IMG/VR virus record: IMGVR_UViG_3300021962_000392
Span: 1 to 31,976 of that record
Length of the DNA stretch: 31,976 bases
Direction: 5' to 3' (one strand)
Origin: a virus
Both the position numbers and the translations under genes were made by a program. Each line of letters starts with the position of its first letter. The stretch's first letter is position 1. Below the pieces are notes generated by a model. The model was not told the origin of the DNA. It was given only the letters and a program-made list of their open reading frames with translations, and made no database searches. Shown one piece after another: positions 1,452 through 19,496 of this stretch.

Positions 1452-4400
1452 ATGCCTGCATTTACGGCCATAGCGGTCTATATTGTTGGAGCGATTGGAG
1501 TCACAGGTTTAGCAGCCACGATTCTGTCTTCTGTCATTGCCACAGGATTGGCAATGGTCACAAGCCGTTTAATCAATGGCAACCCTGGAGGTGGAGGTGG
1601 AGGTGGTCAGGAGAGTCAAGGAACTCGTGTTCAACTTGCACCTGATACCTCTAATAAAATACCTGTTGTATATGGAGAAGGATTTCTTCCTAGCATTGTG
1701 ACAGATGCCTATTTGCATGATGAAAACAAGTGGATGACCTATGTTATGGTCATTGGTGAAACACATAATCAATATGCTCTATTTACTGGTAGTGTTAATG
1801 CTACTAATAGTAGACTATATGTGACTGGTGCTCCAGAAAATGGTACTGGTACTCTACATGTTGGTATGACACTATACAACACAGCTGGTGGTAAGATTGG
1901 TGTTGTTGAAGAATGGTTAGATGGTATCTACGGTAGTATTGGTACTTATAGAATATCTTCACCAGTTGAAACCGCTTCATCTACTATTACTGGTGATTAT
2001 GTATATACAGTAAAAGACATCTACTGGAACGATAATCGACTTGTATTTGATGGTACTAATAAAGGTGGTCCAGTTATATCTGGTAAGAAGTATGTAGATA
2101 ATCTACCTTACAATCCTGAAACTGGTGCTAAGAACGAAGAAGATCATACTGATACTAACTTTAAAGATCACGCTGAAGTGTATGTATATGCACGCAATTC
2201 TACAAACACTAGTGCATTAGGAGTCGCTTCTCCTAAACCTGCATATCAAGTTGTTGCTACAGGTAAAGAATGGAAAGCACCAAACCTTCCTGGTGCTGAA
2301 CGTATGGAAGGTTTAATCTTTGCTGTTGTAAAAATAAAGTATGATGCTGAAAAGGGATTCACTGGTATTCCAAGTATGACATTCCATTTGCACAACAGTC
2401 TTGATAATCCTGCTGTTGTTCTATATGACTATATGCGTAGTGATCGTTATGGTGCATTTATTGGAAACGCATCTATTAATGATGAAGCTCTTGGTGACTA
2501 CGCAAACTTCTGTAATGAGTTAGTATCCTATCAACCATTTGGTAGTAGTGCTCCTGCTACAACACAAAAACGTTATACTATTAATGGTTTAATAGATACC
2601 AACAGTAATGTAATGGATAACATTAATACCATTGCAACTAATGGTGGTGCGTGGTTAGCTTATGATGTAAATCTTGGCCAATGGAAAATAATTCCAAAGC
2701 GTGGTGTAGAGTATAATGCTAGTTATCCTAATAGAAAAATACCTGCATCTCTTCTGAGATTTACTGACGACAATATTATTGGCGGTATCCAAATCAATTC
2801 AACACGTCTTGATGATTTGTATAATATGTCAGACATCGAATTCTTTGATGCAAAACTAAAAGATCAAAGAGGATTTCGTTCGATTGAAATCAACTCAACA
2901 GAACGAAATTATAATGAACCTGACAATTCACTTCGTCTAACACTTGATCTGTGTAATAGCAATGTACAAGCAGAACGAATTGCTAATTTAGAATTAAAGC
3001 AAAGTCGTGATGATCTCATTGTTGGATTTAAAACAACACATTATGGATTACAAGTTGCTGCTGGCGATGTAATACAATTAGAGAGTAGTCTATATGGTTG
3101 GGGAGATCCAGTATTTCCTGGTGGTAAAAAGTTTCGTGTTCTAACCGCTAAAGAAGTTGAAGATGCGGGTGGTGGTTTGATGGCTGAAATCACAGCTCTT
3201 GAATATAACGCTGATGTGTATAGTGATGAAAGTATTTCAGAATTTATCACAAGCAGAAATATTGGTATTATTCCACGAGATAGTAGTGTGAATATACCTG
3301 CACCTATTGTTGTACCAGTACAAGGTGGTGTGAATAGTACTGGTGGTGTTCCTAACTTTAAGTTAAAGATTGAATTGCCAAAAACTGGTGGACCATTCGA
3401 CGAAATTCAATTATGGTATAGTGAAGGTGATGACTGGGCTGGTGTAGGTGGTGATATGAGATTTATGGCTCAAGCAAATGGTAATAATATTTGGGTCGTA
3501 GATTGGTATGGACCAGGTGTTGTTCGAAGTGAAACAGATTCTGGAGTAGCAACAACTATTAGTGGTTGGAATAGTACTCTAAGTCGAGCATATGGTGGTG
3601 ATTATGGTATTCCAGACGGTACATCTATTCAGGCATTCGGTGCATTTGCAAGTTCTTACTATGGTAATGGTCAGACTGGTTATTATACACTAAATCAGAC
3701 AGTACCAAATAATACTGCTCGTATCATCTGTAGTGGTACTGTAAACGCAAGTGAGATTCAGGGTTCTGTTGCAAATGATCAACTCACTATTACTGCTCAT
3801 TCTGGTGAACCACTAGCCGATCAAAGTTTATTGCAGTTTGGTGTAGAGAGTTGCGCAATCACATCTGCTAAAATTGTAGGTACAAGTTTATATGTATATG
3901 AACTAAGCGGTACCCTTGTACCTCATGCGGATACTGGTACTCAAATCGTTGGTAATGGTTTATTACCATTCACACGAATTAAGAAACAACTTGAGAATAC
4001 AGAACCTGACGGAACTCCTGGTAAGAGAGGTGTATATGAACTAAACATTGCGCAATCACAACAGGACATGATGAAGATTAAAGGATACTGGCCTAACTTG
4101 TTGAATAACACTATTATCTTAAATCAGATAAGTGGAACAACTGGTGGTGTTGGTGTATATACACTAAACAAGGGTGCTAATATCGCTGGTACTGCGGTTG
4201 GTTATGCTAAATATCCATATCCAAAGCCATCAACTTATGAGTACTTAAAGAGTATTAAACCAGAACCTGGTAGTTCGTTGTTGTTTAATCAAAACGATGT
4301 TCGTGATACATTCATTAGTAGTTTACCAGCTAACGGACTAAACAAGAAATATTTCGTAAAAGCTCGTCTTGGTATTGCAGGTTCATACGGTCCATTCTCT

Positions 4401-11944: not shown

Positions 11945-12204
11945 TATGTTCACACATGGAGTGTAATACACTATATGAAGTGTGTGATGCTGATGCAGTT
12001 TATGCTGTACTCTACCGAGGAAGAGCAATTAAAGTAAGGAAGAGTAATCCAGATGTAGCGTATCTTGGTTATAAGTACGGCAAGACTACTTTTCCAGAAG
12101 CAGGACATGCAATAAGATTAGCTGCAAAATTGAATGCTGCTCACAACACAGAAGATTTCAGCGTAGCTGTTTTGTCTGTTCAACGTATTGTACGAACAAA
12201 ATAG
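11920..12204 (+). CDS. Unrecognised small protein (94 aa)
   Basis: The gene overlaps the end of the HTH gene by 25 bp. The N-terminal MARPKPTIICSHMECNTLYEV contains two Cys and one His in the pattern C-x2-H-x2-C, without a clear second metal-binding pair. The middle is basic (RGRAIKVRK). No family was recognised. A later Met at 11956 would remove the overlap but also the Cys/His cluster, so I keep the longer start. The overlap suggests co-translation with the HTH protein. Confidence 0.6.
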   Translation: MARPKPTIICSHMECNTLYEVCDADAVYAVLYRGRAIKVRKSNPDVAYLGYKYGKTTFPEAGHAIRLAAKLNAAHNTEDFSVAVLSVQRIVRTK

Positions 12205-12230: not shown

Positions 12231-12328
12231 AGGGTACGATAGCTTGATCACTATCGAGACTGTACTCCGAGTATTGAGCCATTTTGAGCAGTCGAGCAGA
12301 GAGTCCGTCATGGGACTCTTTGTCTTTT
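12231..12328 (+). ncRNA. Candidate structured small RNA ending in a terminator
   Basis: This ~100-nt non-coding segment lies between a TATAAATA element and a rho-independent terminator. Three stems are visible. Stem 1 is CGATAG 12237-12242 with CTATCG 12251-12256. Stem 2 is GACTG 12258-12262 with CAGTC 12289-12293, enclosing TACT-CCG-AGTA. Stem 3 is the terminator at 12298-12321. No ORF of note lies inside. It could be a discrete phage sRNA or a structured 3' UTR of the upstream operon. Confidence 0.4.
12298..12328 (+). terminator. Rho-independent terminator
   Basis: A nine-pair stem (12298-12306 with 12313-12321, core GAGTCC/GGACTC, one G-T pair) with a six-base loop is followed by GTCTTTT. 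It would end transcription from the tail/lysis/HTH side before the control region. Confidence 0.75.
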
Positions 12329-12404: not shown

Positions 12405-13526
12405 ATGACCTATACACCTAACTTTTCTGATAAACGAGTTCGATCTCGCATAATCTCTGCAATCTCTTTTGCAAAGAAATATCTACGACAAGATAAACCA
12501 GTTTCTCTTGGTACTAGATGGATCCATCACAAGAATAATTTTGGTTGTGCTACTAATCCATTATCACAATATTGTCGAGATCAACTTCTCATCTGTGTTG
12601 ATGATAGATTCAATAAAGACCAGAAAATAACTAAGAAGTATATTCTTAATCAAACAGGTCTCGATCTACTAGAAAAAAAACTCGGTTTATTATCTAATAA
12701 AAAAACTCGTGTTATTTCTCTATCTAATATACACATACATACATATAGTGTATTACATCTTTCAGAGAAATTTAAATGTGAGTTAGATTCTGGTCTGGTC
12801 TATAAAGATAGCAGCCACAGATTATGGCATCCAATGCAAAGTTATCCACGAGCGGATAAAGAAGCAATCTTATCTTCTGCAGGATTAGTATATACATATG
12901 ATATTGTATGTTCTGCTCCGACATTATTACATCAATACTCTCAACAGATACCAGAGATTCTAGATAGTGATGGTACTTGGTTGCAGGGTCCAATGGATTT
13001 ATATCTGTTTCATTTAAGAGATTACATTAAAAACAGAAAAACTATTAGAAAAAGATTAGCTCAAGAATGTGGTGTAGACGAACAGATTATTAAACGACTA
13101 ATAAATGCACTATTTCAGGGTGGTGTTATTAGTTCATATCACAAGTCAGGTAGTTATGCAGAACTGAGTGGCGATATCTCTATCATCCAATTCTTACAAC
13201 AGCATCCAATTCTGGTAGGATTAAGAGAAGACATTAAAGTGATGTGGGAATATATATCACCAACTATGTACAGAAAGGTAATCAAAACAAAGAATGGAGT
13301 TATTAGAAAACTTCCAGTTTCTGGAAAACATAAAACTGCGCTGTATAGACAATTAGAAAGAAGAGTATTAGAAGTAGTTAAAGAGTACTTACATCGAACT
13401 GGAAATAAATGCTTTCTAGAACATGATGGTTGGTCTACTGAAAAACCAGTAGATTTAGTTGAGTTGCATTCCTCTATTCTGAAAGAAACTGGATTCGATA
13501 TTCTCTTCAGCACTAAAAAGATATAA
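12405..13526 (+). CDS. Candidate miniature single-subunit polymerase (T7 RNAP/Pol A-like palm motifs)
   Basis: The protein has 373 aa and is not closely similar to anything I know. Three motifs stand in the right order. Motif A-like YDIVCSAPTLLHQYSQ has D166, and D-x-x-C-S matches T7 RNAP around D537. Motif B-like GVDEQIIKRLINALFQGG has K230-R231 and G239, matching T7 K631-R632 and G640 in spacing. Motif C-like FLEHDGWST has H340-D341, compared with T7 HDSFGT at H811-D812. The Arg equivalent to T7 R627 is not seen and Tyr639 is replaced by Gln238. The protein is less than half the size of T7 RNAP. It could be an RNA or DNA polymerase or a primase, or the likeness could be chance. It is the only replication or transcription enzyme candidate here and sits beside repeats and its own promoter. 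The RBS is weak. Confidence 0.45.
   Translation: MTYTPNFSDKRVRSRIISAISFAKKYLRQDKPVSLGTRWIHHKNNFGCATNPLSQYCRDQLLICVDDRFNKDQKITKKYILNQTGLDLLEKKLGLLSNKKTRVISLSNIHIHTYSVLHLSEKFKCELDSGLVYKDSSHRLWHPMQSYPRADKEAILSSAGLVYTYDIVCSAPTLLHQYSQQIPEILDSDGTWLQGPMDLYLFHLRDYIKNRKTIRKRLAQECGVDEQIIKRLINALFQGGVISSYHKSGSYAELSGDISIIQFLQQHPILVGLREDIKVMWEYISPTMYRKVIKTKNGVIRKLPVSGKHKTALYRQLERRVLEVVKEYLHRTGNKCFLEHDGWSTEKPVDLVELHSSILKETGFDILFSTKKI
12727..12772 (+). repeat. Repeat A, inside the polymerase-like gene
   Basis: The core ATATAGTGTATTAC lies at 12743-12756. The segment 12743-12772 matches 13533-13562 directly (3 mismatches in 30). The segment 12727-12765 matches the reverse complement of 13581-13620 with one substitution and one indel. 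It encodes residues about 108-123 of the protein, so it is coding DNA shared with the non-coding region behind the gene. Confidence 0.8.
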
Positions 13527-13532
13527 TACATT

Positions 13533-13603
13533 ATATAGTGTATTACTTCTTACAGAGGAATTGGTGTGCTGATGAATCATCTGAAAGAAGTAATACACTA
13601 TAT
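13533..13603 (+). repeat. Large hairpin formed by repeats B and C
   Basis: Repeat B (13533-13555) pairs with repeat C (13581-13603) over 23 positions with a single mismatch and a 25-base loop. It begins seven bases after the stop of the polymerase-like gene. There is no T-run, so it is not a standard terminator. Possible roles are replication origin, protein-binding site or 3'-end protection. Confidence 0.75.
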
Positions 13604-13639
13604 GTATGTATGTTGTATATTATATAAGAAGAAATTTAT

Positions 13640-13759
13640 ATGAATCAGGTCTTAAAGAAAGAGATAAGAACTGGAAATCCTGATATAATAAGAACTGGAA
13701 ATCCTGATATAATAAGAACTGGAAATCCTGATATAATAAGAACTGGAAATTCCAGATAG
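13640..13759 (+). CDS. Micro-ORF encoding an octapeptide repeat (39 aa)
   Basis: The frame runs from ATG 13640 to TAG 13757-13759, with a weak purine stretch (aagaagaaa) upstream. After MNQVLKKE, the product repeats IRTGNPDI three times and ends IRTGNSR. The 24-bp DNA repeat length is a multiple of three, so an open frame comes easily, and the ORF could be a by-product of repeats that act as DNA. No known family; whether it is translated is uncertain. Confidence 0.3.
   Translation: MNQVLKKEIRTGNPDIIRTGNPDIIRTGNPDIIRTGNSR
13664..13750 (+). repeat. 24-bp tandem direct repeats (about 3.6 copies), iteron-like
   Basis: Identical units start at 13664, 13688 and 13712, each opening ATAAGAACTGGAAATCCTGA; a partial fourth copy starts at 13736 and decays after ATAAGAACTGGAAAT. 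Their position beside the polymerase-like gene, the hairpin and an AT-rich stretch is typical of iteron-type origins. The units also encode an in-frame peptide repeat. Confidence 0.85.
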
Positions 13760-14060
13760 AGATATGAAAGACCCAATACATATGTACCTCAAATAAAAAT
13801 CTCGTGTTATAGAAAATAGCAGAGAACTGAAACCTGTAGTATTACATCCTATCTCCTGTACATGCGGGACATCTATTAAATGAATACTCGTGTATTAGGA
13901 CCTCAGGTGACCTCAGGGATTTCGTGTTGATAGTTATACATCTCGAGAACGACGGCGAGTTTTGGTGCACCGGGACCAATATTTCATCAAAAAACATGCA
14001 TCCTGTATCATCCTGGATACACAATAGTTGACTAAATCTGTCAACTTCTGCACAAAGTTG
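13760..14060. other. Gene-free control region
   Basis: I see no credible gene on either strand here. It contains a direct repeat ACCTCAGG (about 13899-13906 and 13909-13916), a small stem CTCG...CGAG (about 13951-13970), GTATC...GATAC near 14005-14020, and a 7-bp inverted repeat AGTTGAC/GTCAACT (14026-14032, 14040-14046) just upstream of the first cassette promoter. A decayed cassette-like stretch GTAGTATTACATC lies at 13836-13848. It probably holds control or origin sequences. Confidence 0.5.
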
Positions 14061-14116
14061 TGTACAACACCAGAAAACTGTAGTATAATACATCTAACAG
14101 CAGAACAAAAGCTGTT
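14061..14116 (+). promoter_or_regulatory. Promoter-leader cassette 1
   Basis: TGTACA (14061-14066), 17-bp spacer, TATAAT (14084-14089). A hairpin follows six bases later: AACAGC 14096-14101 with GCTGTT 14111-14116. The shared leader tail with ACTCTTAAAGGAAA runs to the start at 14147. The hairpin begins where transcription should start, so the mRNA would carry a 5'-terminal stem. An inverted repeat at 14026-14046 lies upstream. Confidence 0.8.
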
Positions 14117-14146
14117 AAAACCTAAACTCTTAAAGGAAATCTTAAA

Positions 14147-14326
14147 ATGCATGCATCTCTTCGTGATCGTATCCAACAACACAGCCGTGAAGAAGTCTTC
14201 TTCTCATCTTTGTCTGACGGCCAACTTCAGTTTCTTTTCGATCTACTCAAAAACGGTATGGACGCTAAACGCGTACAACTAGCCGTTTGGAACCGTGAAG
14301 ATAGCACAAATCAGACTGCAGTATAA
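14147..14326 (+). CDS. Unrecognised small protein (59 aa)
   Basis: ATG 14147 to TAA 14324-14326, first gene of the first cassette operon, with AAAGGAAA upstream. The product is mostly helical in appearance, with LSDGQLQFLFDLLKNGMDAK in the middle and a polar tail. No family recognised. The strong promoter-leader suggests abundant expression, probably early after infection; the small size fits host-takeover proteins (inference). Confidence 0.7.
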   Translation: MHASLRDRIQQHSREEVFFSSLSDGQLQFLFDLLKNGMDAKRVQLAVWNREDSTNQTAV

Positions 14327-14359
14327 TAAACACATACACACACTAAACAGGAGAGAGAA

Positions 14360-14518
14360 ATGACTTTACTTGATATGATTCAAACTAACGCAAATGCCCG
14401 CAAAGTAGTTGATGAACTAAATGTAGCAGAGTTGATGGCCGCATTTAACATTACACTCACACAGGCCAAGCAGATCAAATATGTCAACGCATTGATCACA
14501 ATGAAAGAGGCCGCATAA
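14360..14518 (+). CDS. Unrecognised small protein (52 aa)
   Basis: ATG 14360 to TAA 14516-14518, preceded by the strong SD aggaga. It is predicted helical, with a segment LNVAELMAAFNITLTQAKQI that could be a small HTH. The TAA overlaps the next ATG (TAATG), so translation of the lipoprotein gene is coupled to it. No family recognised. Second gene of the cassette-1 operon. Confidence 0.7.
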   Translation: MTLLDMIQTNANARKVVDELNVAELMAAFNITLTQAKQIKYVNALITMKEAA

Positions 14519-14760
14519 TGAAACTTTACTCAAGTATTATACTCACTGCAGTACTAGGCACTTCTGGTTGTGCCCAAATTGCGCTGTATCATGACAGTGC
14601 TGATCCATGTCAGGGCCAATACTCTAGTCCTGAACGCAAACGAGAATTGGGTCGTCCAGCAGATTACAAGAATCCAGACTTCTGTAGATACGGTACTTTT
14701 TCAGGTCGGTTGCGGATTACAGATCCTACTGGACATACACTTGGCTACATTACTAAATGA
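14518..14760 (+). CDS. Small lipoprotein (80 aa)
   Basis: A signal peptide MKLYSSIILTAVLGTSGC ends in a lipobox-like TSGC with Cys18 as the predicted lipidated residue, so the mature protein would be about 63 aa in the envelope of a Gram-negative host. The mature part has two further Cys (in DPCQGQY and PDFCRYG). It is not proline-rich, which argues against a classic Rz1 spanin. A superinfection-exclusion or envelope role is possible. Its TGA stop is the first codon of a 25-bp segment repeated exactly at 15809-15833. Confidence 0.7.
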   Translation: MKLYSSIILTAVLGTSGCAQIALYHDSADPCQGQYSSPERKRELGRPADYKNPDFCRYGTFSGRLRITDPTGHTLGYITK

Positions 14761-14776
14761 ATACTTTTGTGCTATA

Positions 14777-14835
14777 TGTACATTGTATAAAAACTGATGT
14801 ATAATCTATCTAACAACAGCAATTCCGCTGTTGTT
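14777..14835 (+). promoter_or_regulatory. Promoter-leader cassette 2
   Basis: TGTACA (14777-14782), 17-bp spacer, TATAAT (14800-14805), then a 9-bp hairpin six bases later: AACAACAGC 14812-14820 with GCTGTTGTT 14827-14835, loop AATTCC. The leader tail ACTCTTAAAGG leads to ATG 14861. The stem differs from cassette 1 but keeps pairing, which supports selection for RNA structure. Confidence 0.8.
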
Positions 14836-14860
14836 TAACTTAAACTCTTAAAGGTAAATC

Positions 14861-15079
14861 ATGTCTTCTACAACTTCACAATTCCGTGTAATCTTTCACC
14901 GTCGGCCAGAACCTGGTGCACCGTTCCGCTGGACTATTGATGGTACCCTTGTCGATGCAACTGACGAAATCGATGCTGAATTGACTGCTCGTGTAAAAAT
15001 GAAACTCGATGGCAATTGGTACTTGCGTTCTATCGAAAATCTCTCAACCACCAACGAACTAAAGGACTTAATGAAATGA
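14861..15079 (+). CDS. Unrecognised small protein (72 aa)
   Basis: First gene of the cassette-2 operon, with AAAGG before the ATG. A beta-rich N-terminal half (QFRVIFHRR, PFRWTIDG) is followed by an acidic/helical part (DEIDAELTARVKMKL). No family recognised. Its TGA overlaps the next start (ATGA), giving coupled translation. Confidence 0.7.
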   Translation: MSSTTSQFRVIFHRRPEPGAPFRWTIDGTLVDATDEIDAELTARVKMKLDGNWYLRSIENLSTTNELKDLMK

Positions 15080-15243
15080 GCCGCATCTCTGAAACGCTAC
15101 TTGAAATAACCGAAATGCTACAGAGTGGCGTACCGCCTGCTACTGTAGCAGCAACTCTTGGCGTACCGTACGATTGGGTAAGTAGTACCTACACTATGAT
15201 GCTGTACGGAGAACCACCGCTTGACGACGAATACGAAGTGTAA
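15076..15243 (+). CDS. Small HTH-like protein (55 aa)
   Basis: The start is chosen at ATG 15076 because it overlaps the upstream stop (ATGA); a longer frame from 15016 would lie inside that gene. Residues about 19-40 (VPPATVAATLGVPYDWVSST) look like a helix-turn-helix of the resolvase or small-terminase type, followed by an acidic tail. It could be a small transcription regulator. No family assigned. Confidence 0.6.
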   Translation: MSRISETLLEITEMLQSGVPPATVAATLGVPYDWVSSTYTMMLYGEPPLDDEYEV

Positions 15244-15245
15244 TA

Positions 15246-15267
15246 CTTCAGTATACATATACTAAAG
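15246..15267 (+). promoter_or_regulatory. Short palindrome after the HTH-like gene
   Basis: AGTATA-CA-TATACT (15250-15263) is perfect, and CTT/AAG (15246-15248, 15265-15267) extend it past one mismatch. There is no T-run, so an operator or an mRNA 3' structure is likelier than a terminator. Confidence 0.4.
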
Positions 15268-15290
15268 TAAACATTTCTCGTGTGAAAAAA

Positions 15291-15322
15291 GTTGTACATA
15301 GTTGCACAAAACTGTGTACAAC
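15291..15322 (+). promoter_or_regulatory. Inverted repeat over the -35 of cassette 3
   Basis: GTTGTACA (15291-15298) and TGTACAAC (15315-15322) are perfect inverted repeats with a 16-bp gap; the right arm contains the -35 TGTACA. This is a plausible operator where a dimeric regulator would block or recruit RNA polymerase. Confidence 0.5.
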
Positions 15323-15370
15323 ATATAAATAAAGATGTATAATACATCTAACAGCAGCTGTTCTGCTGTT
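15315..15370 (+). promoter_or_regulatory. Promoter-leader cassette 3
   Basis: TGTACA (15315-15320), 17-bp spacer, TATAAT (15338-15343), hairpin six bases later: AACAGCAG 15350-15357 with CTGCTGTT 15363-15370. The leader tail CTTAACTCTTAAAGGAAAA leads to ATG 15399. The spacer contains TATAAATAA. It drives 15399-15811. Confidence 0.8.
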
Positions 15371-15398
15371 AAAATCTTAACTCTTAAAGGAAAACATC

Positions 15399-15620
15399 AT
15401 GGCTATTCTTCTTGTAAATGTACAAACAACTGTCGAAATCGAAGTTGATGACGCAGCACTTCACGAGGATTGTCTCATTGACGCAGCTCGTATCGAAGCA
15501 GAAGACATTCTTACAACTGCATTCTCTAACTACAACACTCGATTTACTCTTGCTGAACCGAAAACTCTTATTGTCAAAACACCAGACGTCGACGAAGGTG
15601 TTGATGTGTATGATCTATAA
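15399..15620 (+). CDS. Unrecognised acidic protein (73 aa)
   Basis: First gene of the cassette-3 operon with SD AAAGGAAAA. The product is acidic, with a beta-strand-like start (AILLVNVQTTVEIEV), a helix (LIDAARIEAEDILTTAF) and an acidic tail. It looks like a small alpha/beta domain. Some phage DNA mimics are acidic, but nothing specific supports that here. Its stop overlaps the next ATG by one base (TAATG). Confidence 0.7.
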   Translation: MAILLVNVQTTVEIEVDDAALHEDCLIDAARIEAEDILTTAFSNYNTRFTLAEPKTLIVKTPDVDEGVDVYDL

Positions 15621-15811
15621 TGGATGAAACACTAAATCGAAATACTCTGCATCGTATGCAACATCGTTTGCTACGACTGCAGGGTGCTGACAAATGGCAG
15701 TTCAAGGCAGAAACAGAGAAAATGCAACGAATGAGTGAAGCTGAAATGCGAGAGTATGTAGCTGCATCATGGTGGATTTACTGGAATAAAAACTCTACTA
15801 CTATAAACTGA
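15620..15811 (+). CDS. Unrecognised helical protein (63 aa)
   Basis: Second gene of the cassette-3 operon, coupled by TAATG to its neighbour. Basic N-terminus (RMQHRLLRLQG), a Glu/Met-rich helix (EKMQRMSEAEMREYV) and an aromatic end (SWWIYW). No family recognised. Its TGA is the start of the 25-bp exact repeat shared with 14758-14782, so cassette and upstream stop codon seem to have been duplicated together. Confidence 0.7.
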   Translation: MDETLNRNTLHRMQHRLLRLQGADKWQFKAETEKMQRMSEAEMREYVAASWWIYWNKNSTTIN

Positions 15812-15827
15812 ATACTTTTGTGCTATA

Positions 15828-15883
15828 TGTACATACACACCGACTTGTTGTATAATACATCAACAGCTGCAAAAACAGCTGTT
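15828..15883 (+). promoter_or_regulatory. Promoter-leader cassette 4
   Basis: TGTACA (15828-15833), 17-bp spacer, TATAAT (15851-15856), then a hairpin five bases later: AACAGCTG 15862-15869 with CAGCTGTT 15876-15883. The leader tail is nearly the same as in cassette 3. It drives a run of closely spaced genes from 15913 to the glycosyltransferase ending at 17867. Confidence 0.8.
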
Positions 15884-15912
15884 AAAATCTTAACTCTTAA
15901 AGGAAAACTTAA

Positions 15913-16134
15913 ATGCAAGATATTATTACAAAATCGAATGCACATATCGAGATCTTAAAAACTCGTATTGCTGCAACAACAAATAAAACAGCACCTCAAA
16001 CTCGACCAATTCCGACTGAGTTCTTTAACGACCTCATACCGTTTATGAATCGCGTTTCTAGTGGTAATTTCAAAAAAGTAGTAAGTTTCAACAACGGCTA
16101 TTTCACTGTAAGTTTCAAACGTCGCGGAGCTTAA
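15913..16134 (+). CDS. Unrecognised small protein (73 aa)
   Basis: First gene of the cassette-4 operon, SD AAAGGAAAA. An N-terminal helix (DIITKSNAHIEILKTRIAAT) precedes a proline-containing linker and a basic beta-like C-terminus (FKKVVSFNNGYFTVSFKRRG). No family recognised; the basic tail may bind nucleic acid (inference). One base separates it from the next gene. Confidence 0.65.
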   Translation: MQDIITKSNAHIEILKTRIAATTNKTAPQTRPIPTEFFNDLIPFMNRVSSGNFKKVVSFNNGYFTVSFKRRGA

Positions 16135-16666: not shown

Positions 16667-17082
16667 AACTACGCAAAAACGCTGAACTACTACCCTACCT
16701 CGAGCGTTGGGCAAATAAATGGGTGGTGAGTGGATGGTTGCCATCCACAGCTGAAGTAATCGATGAACTTAACAAAAACTTTCCATTACCCGAATATAAC
16801 TTCGATACTGCAAGTCATTACTATGAACCACTAGAACTAATACATAATCGAGAAGTGTTTATCAACAAACGATGCAACATTGCAGCAGCATTCGCTATTG
16901 AAGAGGCTGCTCGTATGTATGCATCACGATTAGTCAAAGCCGGTGTTAATGTATTATATGTTGTATCACCAGAAAGTTATCGTTGGTCTCTTGATGAACT
17001 TGTAAGTAAAGTTCCTGATGGCAGAGCTATTCGTCATCTACAATGGGTTGCTGACAAAATCATCTATTCAGAATATCTATGA
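16663..17082 (+). CDS. Unrecognised protein next to the glycosyltransferase (139 aa)
   Basis: Coupled on both sides by ATGA overlaps, so made in step with the glycosyltransferase that follows. The N-terminus (LERWANKWVVSGWLPSTAEV) is Trp-rich; the middle is helical (INKRCNIAAAFAIEEAARMY). No domain recognised. The tight coupling suggests a partner or related function, but this is inference. Confidence 0.65.
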   Translation: MKLRKNAELLPYLERWANKWVVSGWLPSTAEVIDELNKNFPLPEYNFDTASHYYEPLELIHNREVFINKRCNIAAAFAIEEAARMYASRLVKAGVNVLYVVSPESYRWSLDELVSKVPDGRAIRHLQWVADKIIYSEYL

Positions 17083-17867
17083 GAACATTTATTATTCCTA
17101 CACTTGGTCGATTACACAATCAGATCACATATAACAACATGCCGGAATCTGTGCAGAAACGCACACATTTTGTTGTGCAATCACATGAAGCAGATGAAGC
17201 TATACATCTATTTGGTGCAGAATCTGTGCGTATCTTACCACCTTCCATTAATCGTATTGGTCCAACTCGTCAGTGGATTTGGGAAGAGTATCGCGGAACC
17301 GATCATGCAGTATTTGATGACGACATTAAAGTCACACATCGTGGAACTGGTAAGTATGTACTATCAGCTGAAGAAGATTGGAAACTTCTAGAATCAACTG
17401 TTGATTCTTGGCATAAGAGTGACAGACCCATCTGTAGTCTCGGTACGACATGGGCACCACCACCTCCTGATCCATTCAGTGATAATGGTCGTATTATGAC
17501 TAATTGGTGGTTCAGCGCAAATCTTACTCATCCACTTGATTGGACACGAGTACCAGCAGGTGAAGATCTTGATGTAGTACTACAAACACTCACAGCTGGA
17601 ATACAGAATAGAATATCATACGACTTTCTTGCTTCAGTTGGTGGCACAAATTCAGCTGGTGGATGTTCTACATGGCGAAACATTGATGTACATAATGAGA
17701 GTCAAAGAAAACTTGCAGCACTATGGCCAGACTTCGTAAAGATGTCTGAAAAAGATGTGAAAAGTGGACCATGGAAAGGACAGAAGAAAATCAATGTCAC
17801 TCTTCTCTGTAAAAAAGCATATAAGAGTTCTCAACGAAATTCTGTTGTTGACGATATATTTGCATAA
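17079..17867 (+). CDS. GT-A glycosyltransferase, TAGT-like (TET-associated) family candidate
   Basis: 262 aa. An N-terminal nucleotide-sugar-binding start (IPTLGR, residues 6-11), then IGPTRQWIWEEY (60-71) and VFDDDI (78-83, DxD at D80-D82, metal and sugar-nucleotide binding), and GEDLDVVLQ (161-169, E162-D163 as the likely catalytic or acceptor-side acid). The I-G-x-T-R-Q-W then DDD pattern is that of phage TET-associated glycosyltransferases, which act on modified bases in hypermodified phage DNA. The neighbours at 18807 and 19486 also point to base modification. It could instead glycosylate a protein. Last gene of the cassette-4 operon. Confidence 0.6.
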   Translation: MRTFIIPTLGRLHNQITYNNMPESVQKRTHFVVQSHEADEAIHLFGAESVRILPPSINRIGPTRQWIWEEYRGTDHAVFDDDIKVTHRGTGKYVLSAEEDWKLLESTVDSWHKSDRPICSLGTTWAPPPPDPFSDNGRIMTNWWFSANLTHPLDWTRVPAGEDLDVVLQTLTAGIQNRISYDFLASVGGTNSAGGCSTWRNIDVHNESQRKLAALWPDFVKMSEKDVKSGPWKGQKKINVTLLCKKAYKSSQRNSVVDDIFA

Positions 17868-17872
17868 AAATG

Positions 17873-17901
17873 TTTACTATACAACTCGATTATTGTATAA
17901 T
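17873..17901 (+). promoter_or_regulatory. Promoter of the MazG-like/modification operon
   Basis: TTTACT (17873-17878), 17-bp spacer, TATAAT (17896-17901), followed by overlapping TATAAATA words (17901-17914) and the SD AAAGGA before ATG 17925. It lacks the hairpin leader and the TGTACA -35 of the four cassettes, so it may be regulated separately. Confidence 0.6.
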
Positions 17902-17924
17902 ATAAATATAAATAAAGGATAAAC

Positions 17925-18320
17925 ATGAACACTTGGTATGATGATATAGCTGCAATGCATCAGCATTACGGCTTTGATATTTCTGAAATGAACTCAGAAG
18001 AACTGCAGAAGTTCTTAAACTTTCGTATTGACTTCTTAGCAGAAGAACTACAAGAACTACAAGATGCAGATAACGGCGACGATGCTGTTGATGCACTTAT
18101 TGATTTATGTGTGATTGCTATTGGTACACTACATCTCTATGGAGTTGATTCACAACTCGCATGGAAACGAGTACTCGATGCAAACATGCGTAAAGTGGTT
18201 GGTGTAAAGAATACACGACCACAACCTGGCAATCTGCCAGATCTGGTAAAGCCAGAAGGATGGAGGGCACCTCAACATGCCGATAATGTTGGTCTGTTCT
18301 CCAAAATCTATAACACTTAA
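17925..18320 (+). CDS. MazG-like all-alpha NTP pyrophosphatase
   Basis: 131 aa. The helix pair carries FLAEELQELQ (residues 37-46; E40, E41, E44) and DAVDALIDLCVIAIGT (53-68; D56, D60), the metal-binding acidic layout of MazG/phosphoribosyl-ATP pyrophosphohydrolase-like proteins; VLDANMRKV (83-91) fits the phage branch. It would hydrolyse a nucleoside triphosphate to the monophosphate. With a nucleotide hydroxymethylase homologue downstream, a role in supplying dNMP (for example dCMP) or removing the unmodified dNTP is plausible. Substrate is inference. It has its own promoter. Confidence 0.75.
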   Translation: MNTWYDDIAAMHQHYGFDISEMNSEELQKFLNFRIDFLAEELQELQDADNGDDAVDALIDLCVIAIGTLHLYGVDSQLAWKRVLDANMRKVVGVKNTRPQPGNLPDLVKPEGWRAPQHADNVGLFSKIYNT

Positions 18321-18333
18321 GAGAAAACTAAAA

Positions 18334-18810
18334 ATGAACACAAATACACGAGCTAATAATACAGATAACAAAGTCATTCGCGAATTTGACTATCACAAGT
18401 TATCAAAACAACAGACAACTCAACTCGTTGAATCTGCTCTGAATATGATTGACCTACACTTCAATTGTGATGGTGAATATCTCTCAACATGTAAAGATAC
18501 TGATAACTATACATACGCACCGTACAAGATCTTTGATAAGATTGAACCAATGTTCAGACATCTGTGTCAGGACGAAGCAGATACACGATTTCTTGATTAT
18601 GTGATTAACAATACAACAAAGCCATTTAAATGGTGGAAGTTTAATGGTGAGAGTGTTAATCTGAGTCAGGCACAACTACAATGGTGGAGTAAGCAATTCA
18701 AACGATACGGTATCGATAACGAATTCCTACATGAAGTAGAAGAACGTCCAGAAACTACAGCAACCGTTGCAGTCGCAAAATCACCACGATACAGCGAGTT
18801 ATTCGAATGA
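18334..18810 (+). CDS. Unrecognised protein in the modification operon (158 aa)
   Basis: Start set at ATG 18334, after the MazG stop, with gagaaaac upstream; an earlier frame start at 18277 lies inside the MazG gene. An Asn/Thr-rich N-terminus is followed by helices (LVESALNMIDLHF), an aromatic-rich part (PFKWWKFNGESVNLS, LQWWSKQFKRYG) and an acidic end. No family recognised. It overlaps the next gene by ATGA, suggesting its product is needed with the synthase homologue. Confidence 0.65.
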   Translation: MNTNTRANNTDNKVIREFDYHKLSKQQTTQLVESALNMIDLHFNCDGEYLSTCKDTDNYTYAPYKIFDKIEPMFRHLCQDEADTRFLDYVINNTTKPFKWWKFNGESVNLSQAQLQWWSKQFKRYGIDNEFLHEVEERPETTATVAVAKSPRYSELFE

Positions 18811-19496
18811 AAGTAGAAGACATCAGAAAACTATTCTCTGATGCCTATAAAGTCGGTACCGAGAATCCTACAGTTGAGATACTCGGTGCCTCTTTTGAAG
18901 CTGATGAAGCCGCAATCTTTGGTACTCCTGACCAAAACTATATTGATCGTGAAATCTCTTGGTATGAGAGCAATTCACGAAATGTAAATGACTTTCCTGG
19001 TGGCGCACCAACTATCTGGAAATCAGTAGCATCACCCGCGGGTATGATTAACTCAAACTACGGTTATCTTATTTGGTCACCGCAAAACGGCCGTCAATAT
19101 CTACGAGTACGACAAGAACTTGAAACCAATCCCGCTTCTCGTCGTGCTACCATGATCTATACACGACCATCCATGCATTATGATTACTATACAGACGGTA
19201 TGAGTGATTTCGTTTGTACTAATGCAGTATCATATTATATTCGTGATAATCTACTACATGCAGTAGTTCAAATGCGATCTAACGATGCTGTGTATGGTTA
19301 TAAGAATGATCGTGCATGGCAACTACATGTTATGGATCTTCTCTGCAAAGATTTGAAGATCTCTCGTGGTACTCTACATTGGCAAGTACAGAACTTGCAT
19401 GTATACTCACGTCACTATAAGTTTATCGAAGAATATGCAACCTTACACCACACCCCACCCAGGAAGAACACCAAAGGAAATAAAGATGGAAAATAA
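18807..19496 (+). CDS. Thymidylate synthase-family enzyme, likely dNMP (dCMP) hydroxymethylase
   Basis: 229 aa with the TS landmarks in order: EISWYES (49-55), NPASRR (108-113, phosphate-binding Arg pair), FVCTN (135-139, catalytic Cys137), MRSNDAVYG (156-164, R157-S158 and D160) and LHVYSRHY (197-204, H198 and Y200). In TS the base is read by Asn four residues after the conserved Gly; here Gly164+4 is Asp168, as in dCMP hydroxymethylases, where Asp replaces Asn. This suggests synthesis of hydroxymethyl-dCMP from dCMP and methylene-tetrahydrofolate, subject to my alignment by eye. TS-type activity cannot be excluded. The usual Pro-Cys-His is Val-Cys-Thr. Confidence 0.75.
   Translation: MKVEDIRKLFSDAYKVGTENPTVEILGASFEADEAAIFGTPDQNYIDREISWYESNSRNVNDFPGGAPTIWKSVASPAGMINSNYGYLIWSPQNGRQYLRVRQELETNPASRRATMIYTRPSMHYDYYTDGMSDFVCTNAVSYYIRDNLLHAVVQMRSNDAVYGYKNDRAWQLHVMDLLCKDLKISRGTLHWQVQNLHVYSRHYKFIEEYATLHHTPPRKNTKGNKDGK

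Follow-up and report, generated by a model that had tools for sequence, protein, structure and literature searches.

A compact A-type polymerase gene carrying a repeated DNA element: a candidate replication initiator-primase of small tailed phages

Which protein could start DNA replication in a tailed phage whose genome offers no other recognizable replication enzyme? The question is raised by a 31,976-nt stretch of viral DNA (IMG/VR virus record IMGVR_UViG_3300021962_000392; the whole stretch is called the window), which by Pfam and PHROGs resembles a tailed-phage genome, with TerL, portal, scaffold, capsid, tape measure, J-like tail protein and holin. An earlier note, made from the sequence alone, had proposed that one of its genes encodes a miniature single-subunit polymerase, and had named RNA polymerase, primase and DNA polymerase as options. 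The gene and its upstream boundary are as follows.

12405..13526, + strand: gene of the mini A-type polymerase P0001, an open reading frame of 373 aa with ATG start, identified by family alignment and structure models.
12296..12323, + strand: terminator-like hairpin upstream of the polymerase gene, separating it from the lysis/tail genes.

The start codon is supported, because the relatives described below open with the same M-Y-x-P-N-F motif. The promoter that had been ascribed to the gene is weakly supported: promoter-like matches were no better than those in shuffles.

As a single query P0001 had no match in Pfam, PHROGs, PDB sequences or, by tblastn, INPHARED (50,697 phage records). In IMG/VR the single sequence retrieved two relatives, a three-sequence profile 12, and a profile of the catalytic half 57 loci, which encode about 48 distinct proteins. 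GTDB genome contigs, searched with the first (smaller) profile, yielded no relatives. Conservation was counted in an alignment of 48 distinct proteins from IMG/VR phage contigs, 27-56% identical to P0001. R139, Q145, Y165, D166, R215, K230, W281, Y314, E318, F337, H340, D341 and G342 are invariant (48/48). The polymerase motifs are located as follows.

12897..12920, + strand: motif A, YDIVCSAP (aa 165-172), with the catalytic D166 (Asp in 48/48) and the steric-gate position D+5, A171.
13092..13121, + strand: motif B, O-helix-like, KRLINALFQG (aa 230-239), K230 in 48/48 and G239 in 47/48.
13419..13430, + strand: motif C, EHDG (aa 339-342), with H340, D341 and G342 in 48/48.

All three motifs on which the earlier note had relied, YDIVCSAP with D166, GVDEQIIKRLINALFQGG with K230 and G239, and HDGWST with H340-D341, were confirmed in the reading frame and at the positions given there, and their origin by chance is ruled out, since the residues are kept across the 48 aligned relatives. 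The ribose-excluding Glu (E710 position, D+5 in motif A) is found in none of the proteins; 45 have Ala and three Cys. The F762 position (K+4) is Asn in 43 of the 48 relatives, K-4 is mixed (mostly Glu or Pro, not Arg), and the O-helix Tyr is absent from the family alignment. The consensus 'RRxxTxKxGxxRxLPISSKQKW' precedes the helix leading to motif C and, compared by eye, resembles the PolA hairpin 'T..GRR..LP.I.S.N'.

Profile comparisons with classical polymerases were negative. Pfam DNA_pol_A (PF00476) had no match in the window record at E <= 10, nor in 24 further contigs at E <= 1. PDB profile searches with the P0001 family gave chance-level matches only, and hhalign found no significant match between the family profile and the single sequences of E. 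coli PolA, T7 DNA polymerase or T7 RNA polymerase. The superfamily link therefore rests on structure, on the motifs and on a bridge to the TV-Pols (see below).

The AlphaFold model of P0001 reached a pLDDT of 80 with 12 sequences and 92.4 with 48. Disorder is limited to residues 100-114, and the model divides the protein into three parts.

12405..12692, + strand: N-terminal domain, aa 1-96, in the model secondary structure of helix-helix-hairpin-helix order like a winged helix.
12702..12746, + strand: disordered linker, aa 100-114 (pLDDT < 50), which runs into the DNA element.
12750..13523, + strand: fingers/palm catalytic core, aa 116-373, from the AlphaFold model, Foldseek and VIA-align.

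It had been set beforehand that lack of a palm fold would refute the polymerase reading. When this check was run, A-family polymerases outranked all other PDB entries as matches to two AlphaFold models. The Foldseek ranking was led by Klenow, KlenTaq, Bst and Pol theta (E ~5e-4 to 1e-2, probability ~1; Klenow/KlenTaq E ~1e-3), and mitochondrial RNA polymerases came next, after the DNA polymerase I-type enzymes. By VIA-align the top match was T7 DNA polymerase, at Z 12.0 with an rmsd of 3.6 Å across 221 residues (model residues 119-373 against chain residues 409-697), and A-type DNA polymerases filled the 50 best rows throughout. The catalytic D475 and D654 of T7 DNA polymerase fall within the aligned chain range; the comparison uses aligned ranges and rmsd, not superposition of individual residues. 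Among viral models the best matches were uncultured phage proteins (E 2e-9), followed by the Zamilon virophage DNA replication protein (E 8e-6). In the predicted layout strand 163-167 carries D166, the fingers-like helices 202-237 carry K230, hairpin 336-345 holds HDG, and R139 lies in strand 139-141, beside strand 134-136. The predicted palm fold and motif invariance support the polymerase-like identity proposed earlier. Sequence and predicted structure together support placing P0001 in the superfamily of DNA polymerase I and T7 RNA polymerase, as a minimal palm-domain enzyme near the TV-Pols.

A degenerate palm, kept as a fold without catalysis in an initiator, is a very unlikely alternative. 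The absence of the O-helix Tyr and of the arginine of the fingers RxxxK motif would speak for it. Against it stands the invariance, across 48 diverged sequences, of the two catalytic Asp, the Lys and the hairpin Arg, residues that a dead enzyme is not expected to keep. For the N-terminal domain the evidence is thinner: among relatives it gave weak wHTH Pfam matches only, and its proposed role as the DNA-binding part is inferred from predicted shape alone, without binding data.

Compact A-type polymerases of mobile elements are not new: TV-Pols, CCPol-MP and divPolA1/2 have been published (PMC2579912, PMC7581432, PMC10061031, PMC11348598). With the TV-Pols (Iyer, Abhiman and Aravind 2008, PMC2579912), which include the primase-polymerase of the virophages Sputnik and Zamilon, the P0001 family shares a minimal A-superfamily core without exonuclease, the hairpin Arg (R139, 48/48), two palm Asp, an HDG-type motif C, and sequence relatives on plasmids and phages. 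It differs in length (~340-390 aa against 400-600) and in lacking the fingers RxxxK, an invariant R215 sitting 15 residues before the Lys instead. The fingers Asp is poorly kept (D198, 35/48), and a DNA element lies in the linker. Neither a D5-like helicase nor a resolvase/transposase neighbourhood was seen among the Pfam families listed for the window and three other full contigs. The TV-Pol thumb of two antiparallel helices has only short candidates in the model, helices 10-26 and 116-129. Because RxxxK and the D5 helicase are missing, we call the family TV-Pol-like and do not file it as TV-Pol. The earlier statement that P0001 is far smaller than known members held in part, as TV-Pols and the SCCmec CCPol are already compact (PMC2579912, PMC7581432) and the P0001 family is somewhat below them.

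The sequence bridge runs through a plasmid. A search with MAP_030 of Microcystis phage Ma-LMM01, which by size and neighbouring transposases we take to be the TV-Pol of Iyer et al., retrieved a polymerase encoded by Polaromonas plasmid pH8NP1 (E 2e-4; back-search E 6e-5). The plasmid protein in turn matched the P0001-family profile (hhalign 98.6%, E 1e-15, 210 columns) and P0001 itself (blastp E 1e-9), both in very small searches. A direct bridge from MAP_030 to the P0001 family was not significant. The pH8NP1 polymerase (1787-3292 of locus L100) is annotated 'Clp protease N-terminal domain-containing protein' and is likely the plasmid's replication protein. A larger relative, a 716-aa open frame, was noticed in Desulfovibrio phage 7757 (L195, ~63609-64760), a cultured 142-kb phage with an unannotated record.

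The CCPol-MP primase of SCCmec (PMC7581432, PMC10061031) likewise has an A-family core on a mobile element and adjoins an origin with repeats; priming starts at these repeats of its own SCCmec origin (PMC7581432). CCPol retains E174 and F225 and uses dNTPs only, whereas the P0001 family has Ala and Asn there, and neither MP/SSB nor helicase was found with P0001 (Pfam, window). DivPolA2 of Caudoviricetes (PMC11348598) is another A-type palm of phages; it has no exonuclease, and its globular N-terminal domain takes the place of the usual thumb, but it occurs beside a regular DNA polymerase. As a close relative it was rejected, no sequence relation being detected (AUR84708, hhalign probability 0.3%).

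The earlier observation that no other replication enzyme is present held within the scope searched (contig completeness is unknown). Pfam on 44 window ORFs revealed no polymerase, primase or helicase (25 of 26 matched families inspected), and PHROGs on 20 window ORFs no replication enzyme. Pfam found none in three more full contigs either (88 ORFs, 18 families). DNA_pol_A is absent from all 25 contigs searched, and DnaB is missing in 24 of the 25, its sole carrier being a 101-kb contig. The window yielded no helicase, clamp, clamp loader, SSB, proofreading domain or Zn partner (Pfam for SSB; neighbours unmodelled).

These absences bear on the possibility that P0001 is itself the enzyme that replicates the phage DNA, a small A-type DNA polymerase with strand displacement that copies the whole ~32-kb genome. 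The best fold matches are A-family DNA polymerases, no DNA_pol_A was seen in 25 contigs and no other polymerase by Pfam in four, and Sputnik-type virophages depend on a helicase-fused TV-Pol (PMC2579912). On the other side, the searches turned up neither a helicase nor a clamp loader, an SSB or a proofreading domain, and the dNTP-selecting residues (E710 and F762 positions) are lost. Moreover, many phages of this size use host Pol III. We consider this alternative unlikely.

Some further genes and signals were noted in passing. A small Zn-ribbon-like ORF (...GLYC..C.KWI.WLS...) lies less than 700 nt from the polymerase in 17/49 loci (L008, L010, L013, L016, L018, L022, L023, L025, L048, L051, L057, L060, L080, L091, L094 and L098 among them) and is absent from the window; it may be a primase cofactor. 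At 17079-19496 of the window beta-glucosyl-HMC-glucosyltransferase/TAGT-like, MazG-like and thymidylate synthase-like genes are clustered, with a DUF1599 match, so that the phage probably hypermodifies its DNA. At 14049-15913 leader cassettes recur before small ORFs, with TATAAT-like boxes followed by a AACTCTTAAAGGAAA-like sequence (14119, 14837, 15373 and 15886); they are likely related early promoters accompanied by ribosome sites.

The gene also carries a DNA signal. A 16-22-bp element, TAGTGTAnnACAAGTC, lies in the codons of the disordered linker and again just behind the polymerase gene. The copies and the adjoining repeat are these.

12733..12766, + strand: in-gene copy with 16-nt core 12746-12761, TAGTGTATTACATCTT; 34-nt inverted match to 13580-13613 (97%), above all 60 controls.
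13533..13562, + strand: second copy, 7 nt past the stop codon, a direct repeat 90% identical to 12743-12772.
13580..13613, - strand: third copy, inverted, forming a hairpin with 13533-13559 (repeat search and DNA fold).
11963..11978, - strand: fourth copy, partial and inverted, within the upstream small ORF (repeat match).
13664..13750, + strand: 24-bp tandem repeat ATAAGAACTGGAAATCCTGATATA, ~3.6 copies (repeat search).

The hairpin formed by the 13533/13603 pair has a DNA-fold z of -9.8, and the tandem repeat is possibly part of the origin region. Thus the claim that the gene lies beside origin-like repeats held. GC skew, used as an origin marker, gave no signal at the polymerase gene.

The element is shared by the family. 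Its consensus in relatives is ATACCCTA(G/T)TGTATTACAAGTC, in the clade of the window ACATATAGTGTANNACAWSTC; the linker copy lies mostly at +285 to +400 and the second copy at the gene end. Linker and gene-end copies exceed all 60 controls in 31/49 loci, and about a third of the loci have no clear pair. Inverted copies upstream are also found in L050, L076 and L088. Most linker copies are in one reading frame, two are in another and four are inverted, and the gene-end copy often falls past the stop codon; because of this variation and position we conclude that the constraint acts on DNA (or RNA), not on protein.

Copies resemble each other more within a phage (0.79) than between phages (0.57; 0/5000 permutations). 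Paired copies stay identical for a median of 21 nt on the upstream side of the core, against 0 nt on the downstream side (26 pairs vs 1, p 4e-7). The window is an exception: its linker and direct copies share more downstream, and the upstream identity is shared with the inverted copy. Paired repeats of 40-50 nt, with identity upstream of the 16-nt core and ending at its 3' edge, were seen in L001, L008, L010, L012, L013, L018, L047-L051, L082 and others. Coding constraint may contribute to the upstream-only identity, because the sharp edge of the core coincides with the start of the structured palm. A diversity-generating retroelement was rejected as a reading of the paired repeats (short tract, near-identical copies, no reverse transcriptase seen).

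Where the element occurs speaks to a second alternative, that P0001 is an RNA polymerase of the phage, comparable to N4 RNAPII or T7 RNAP, with the element serving as its promoter. These enzymes belong to the same palm superfamily, and T7 and N4 RNA polymerases have a small steric-gate residue, a trait they share with the P0001 family (Ala here, Gly in T7 RNAP). Mitochondrial RNA polymerases are among the fold matches, and the element read on the opposite strand, e.g. GTAATACACTA(T/G), may bear a faint resemblance to phage promoters. However, transcription promoters are expected ahead of many genes, whereas the element is found almost only in or beside its own gene. A scan of 565 kb gave 71 hits: 55 inside the gene or no more than 200 nt from its end, and 16 elsewhere, compared with 8 for shuffled sequence. 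P0001 shows no obvious T7-like N-terminal domain. This confinement also disfavours a phage-wide promoter in general, and we regard the RNA polymerase reading as improbable.

A third alternative accepts the polymerase but makes the repeats a separate matter, boundaries of recombination or of a mobile element or an autoregulatory operator, not an origin. In its favour, paired copies are alike within a phage, flank the palm-coding segment and are inverted in several phages. Against it, no recombinase is among the families listed for four phages, and the copies stay with the same gene across differing gene contexts. It too appears unlikely.

We favour, with moderate confidence, a different reading: that P0001 is a phage replication initiator-primase, which would bind and prime at the element and then hand over to the host. 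No activity has been measured. The N-terminal domain would bind the element in the linker and just behind the gene, which is inferred in the absence of binding data. The palm core would then make a primer at the element. NTPs are the probable substrate, given that Ala or Cys stands in place of the ribose-excluding Glu; both primer synthesis and NTP use are inferences. Finally, the host replisome may take over, a step inferred from absence, because the window revealed no gene for a helicase, a clamp or a replicative polymerase. In that case the origin would lie within the polymerase gene itself, as in lambda gene O. Lambda gene O has repeated DNA sites within the linker of the initiator's own gene; the P0001 family resembles lambda O and iteron initiators in this, and differs by adding a polymerase domain and a second site behind the gene. 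Of the options named earlier, primase/initiator fits best, its activity being inferred; it is preferred to an RNA polymerase acting genome-wide and to a DNA polymerase that replicates the phage alone because no other replication genes were found, the element is confined to the gene and its placement in the linker is lambda-O-like.

Several points weigh against the initiator-primase, among them the missing pair in about a third of the loci and the lack of a GC-skew signal at the gene. The element copies are ~750-850 bp apart and do not form a tight iteron array, and CCPol requires MP to prime, whereas neither an MP-like SSB nor a Zn partner was found in the window.

A bolder version, which we think unlikely, would see here a new and minimal mode of replication start in tailed phages and make a single ~370-aa protein both origin-binding protein and A-type RNA primase, with the origin in its own linker and priming itself keeping the repeats alike. 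Nascent strands would start at the 3' edge of the element and switch between the two copies; such priming and copy switching would account for the identity of median 21 nt upstream of the core that stops at the core end.

In the literature searched, the coverage of which was partial, we found no description of the P0001 phage family without helicase gene, or of its paired element; novelty is unproven. Small tailed phages often lack a recognizable replication gene, and the P0001 family provides a concrete candidate for one group of them. It extends the idea developed for TV-Pol and CCPol, that A-type polymerases act as primases, to phages without a helicase gene. Its steric gate predicts RNA or mixed primers, and the DNA element makes the question of the origin directly testable. 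P0001 is perhaps among the smallest complete A-type polymerases, and may be useful for defining what a minimal core requires.
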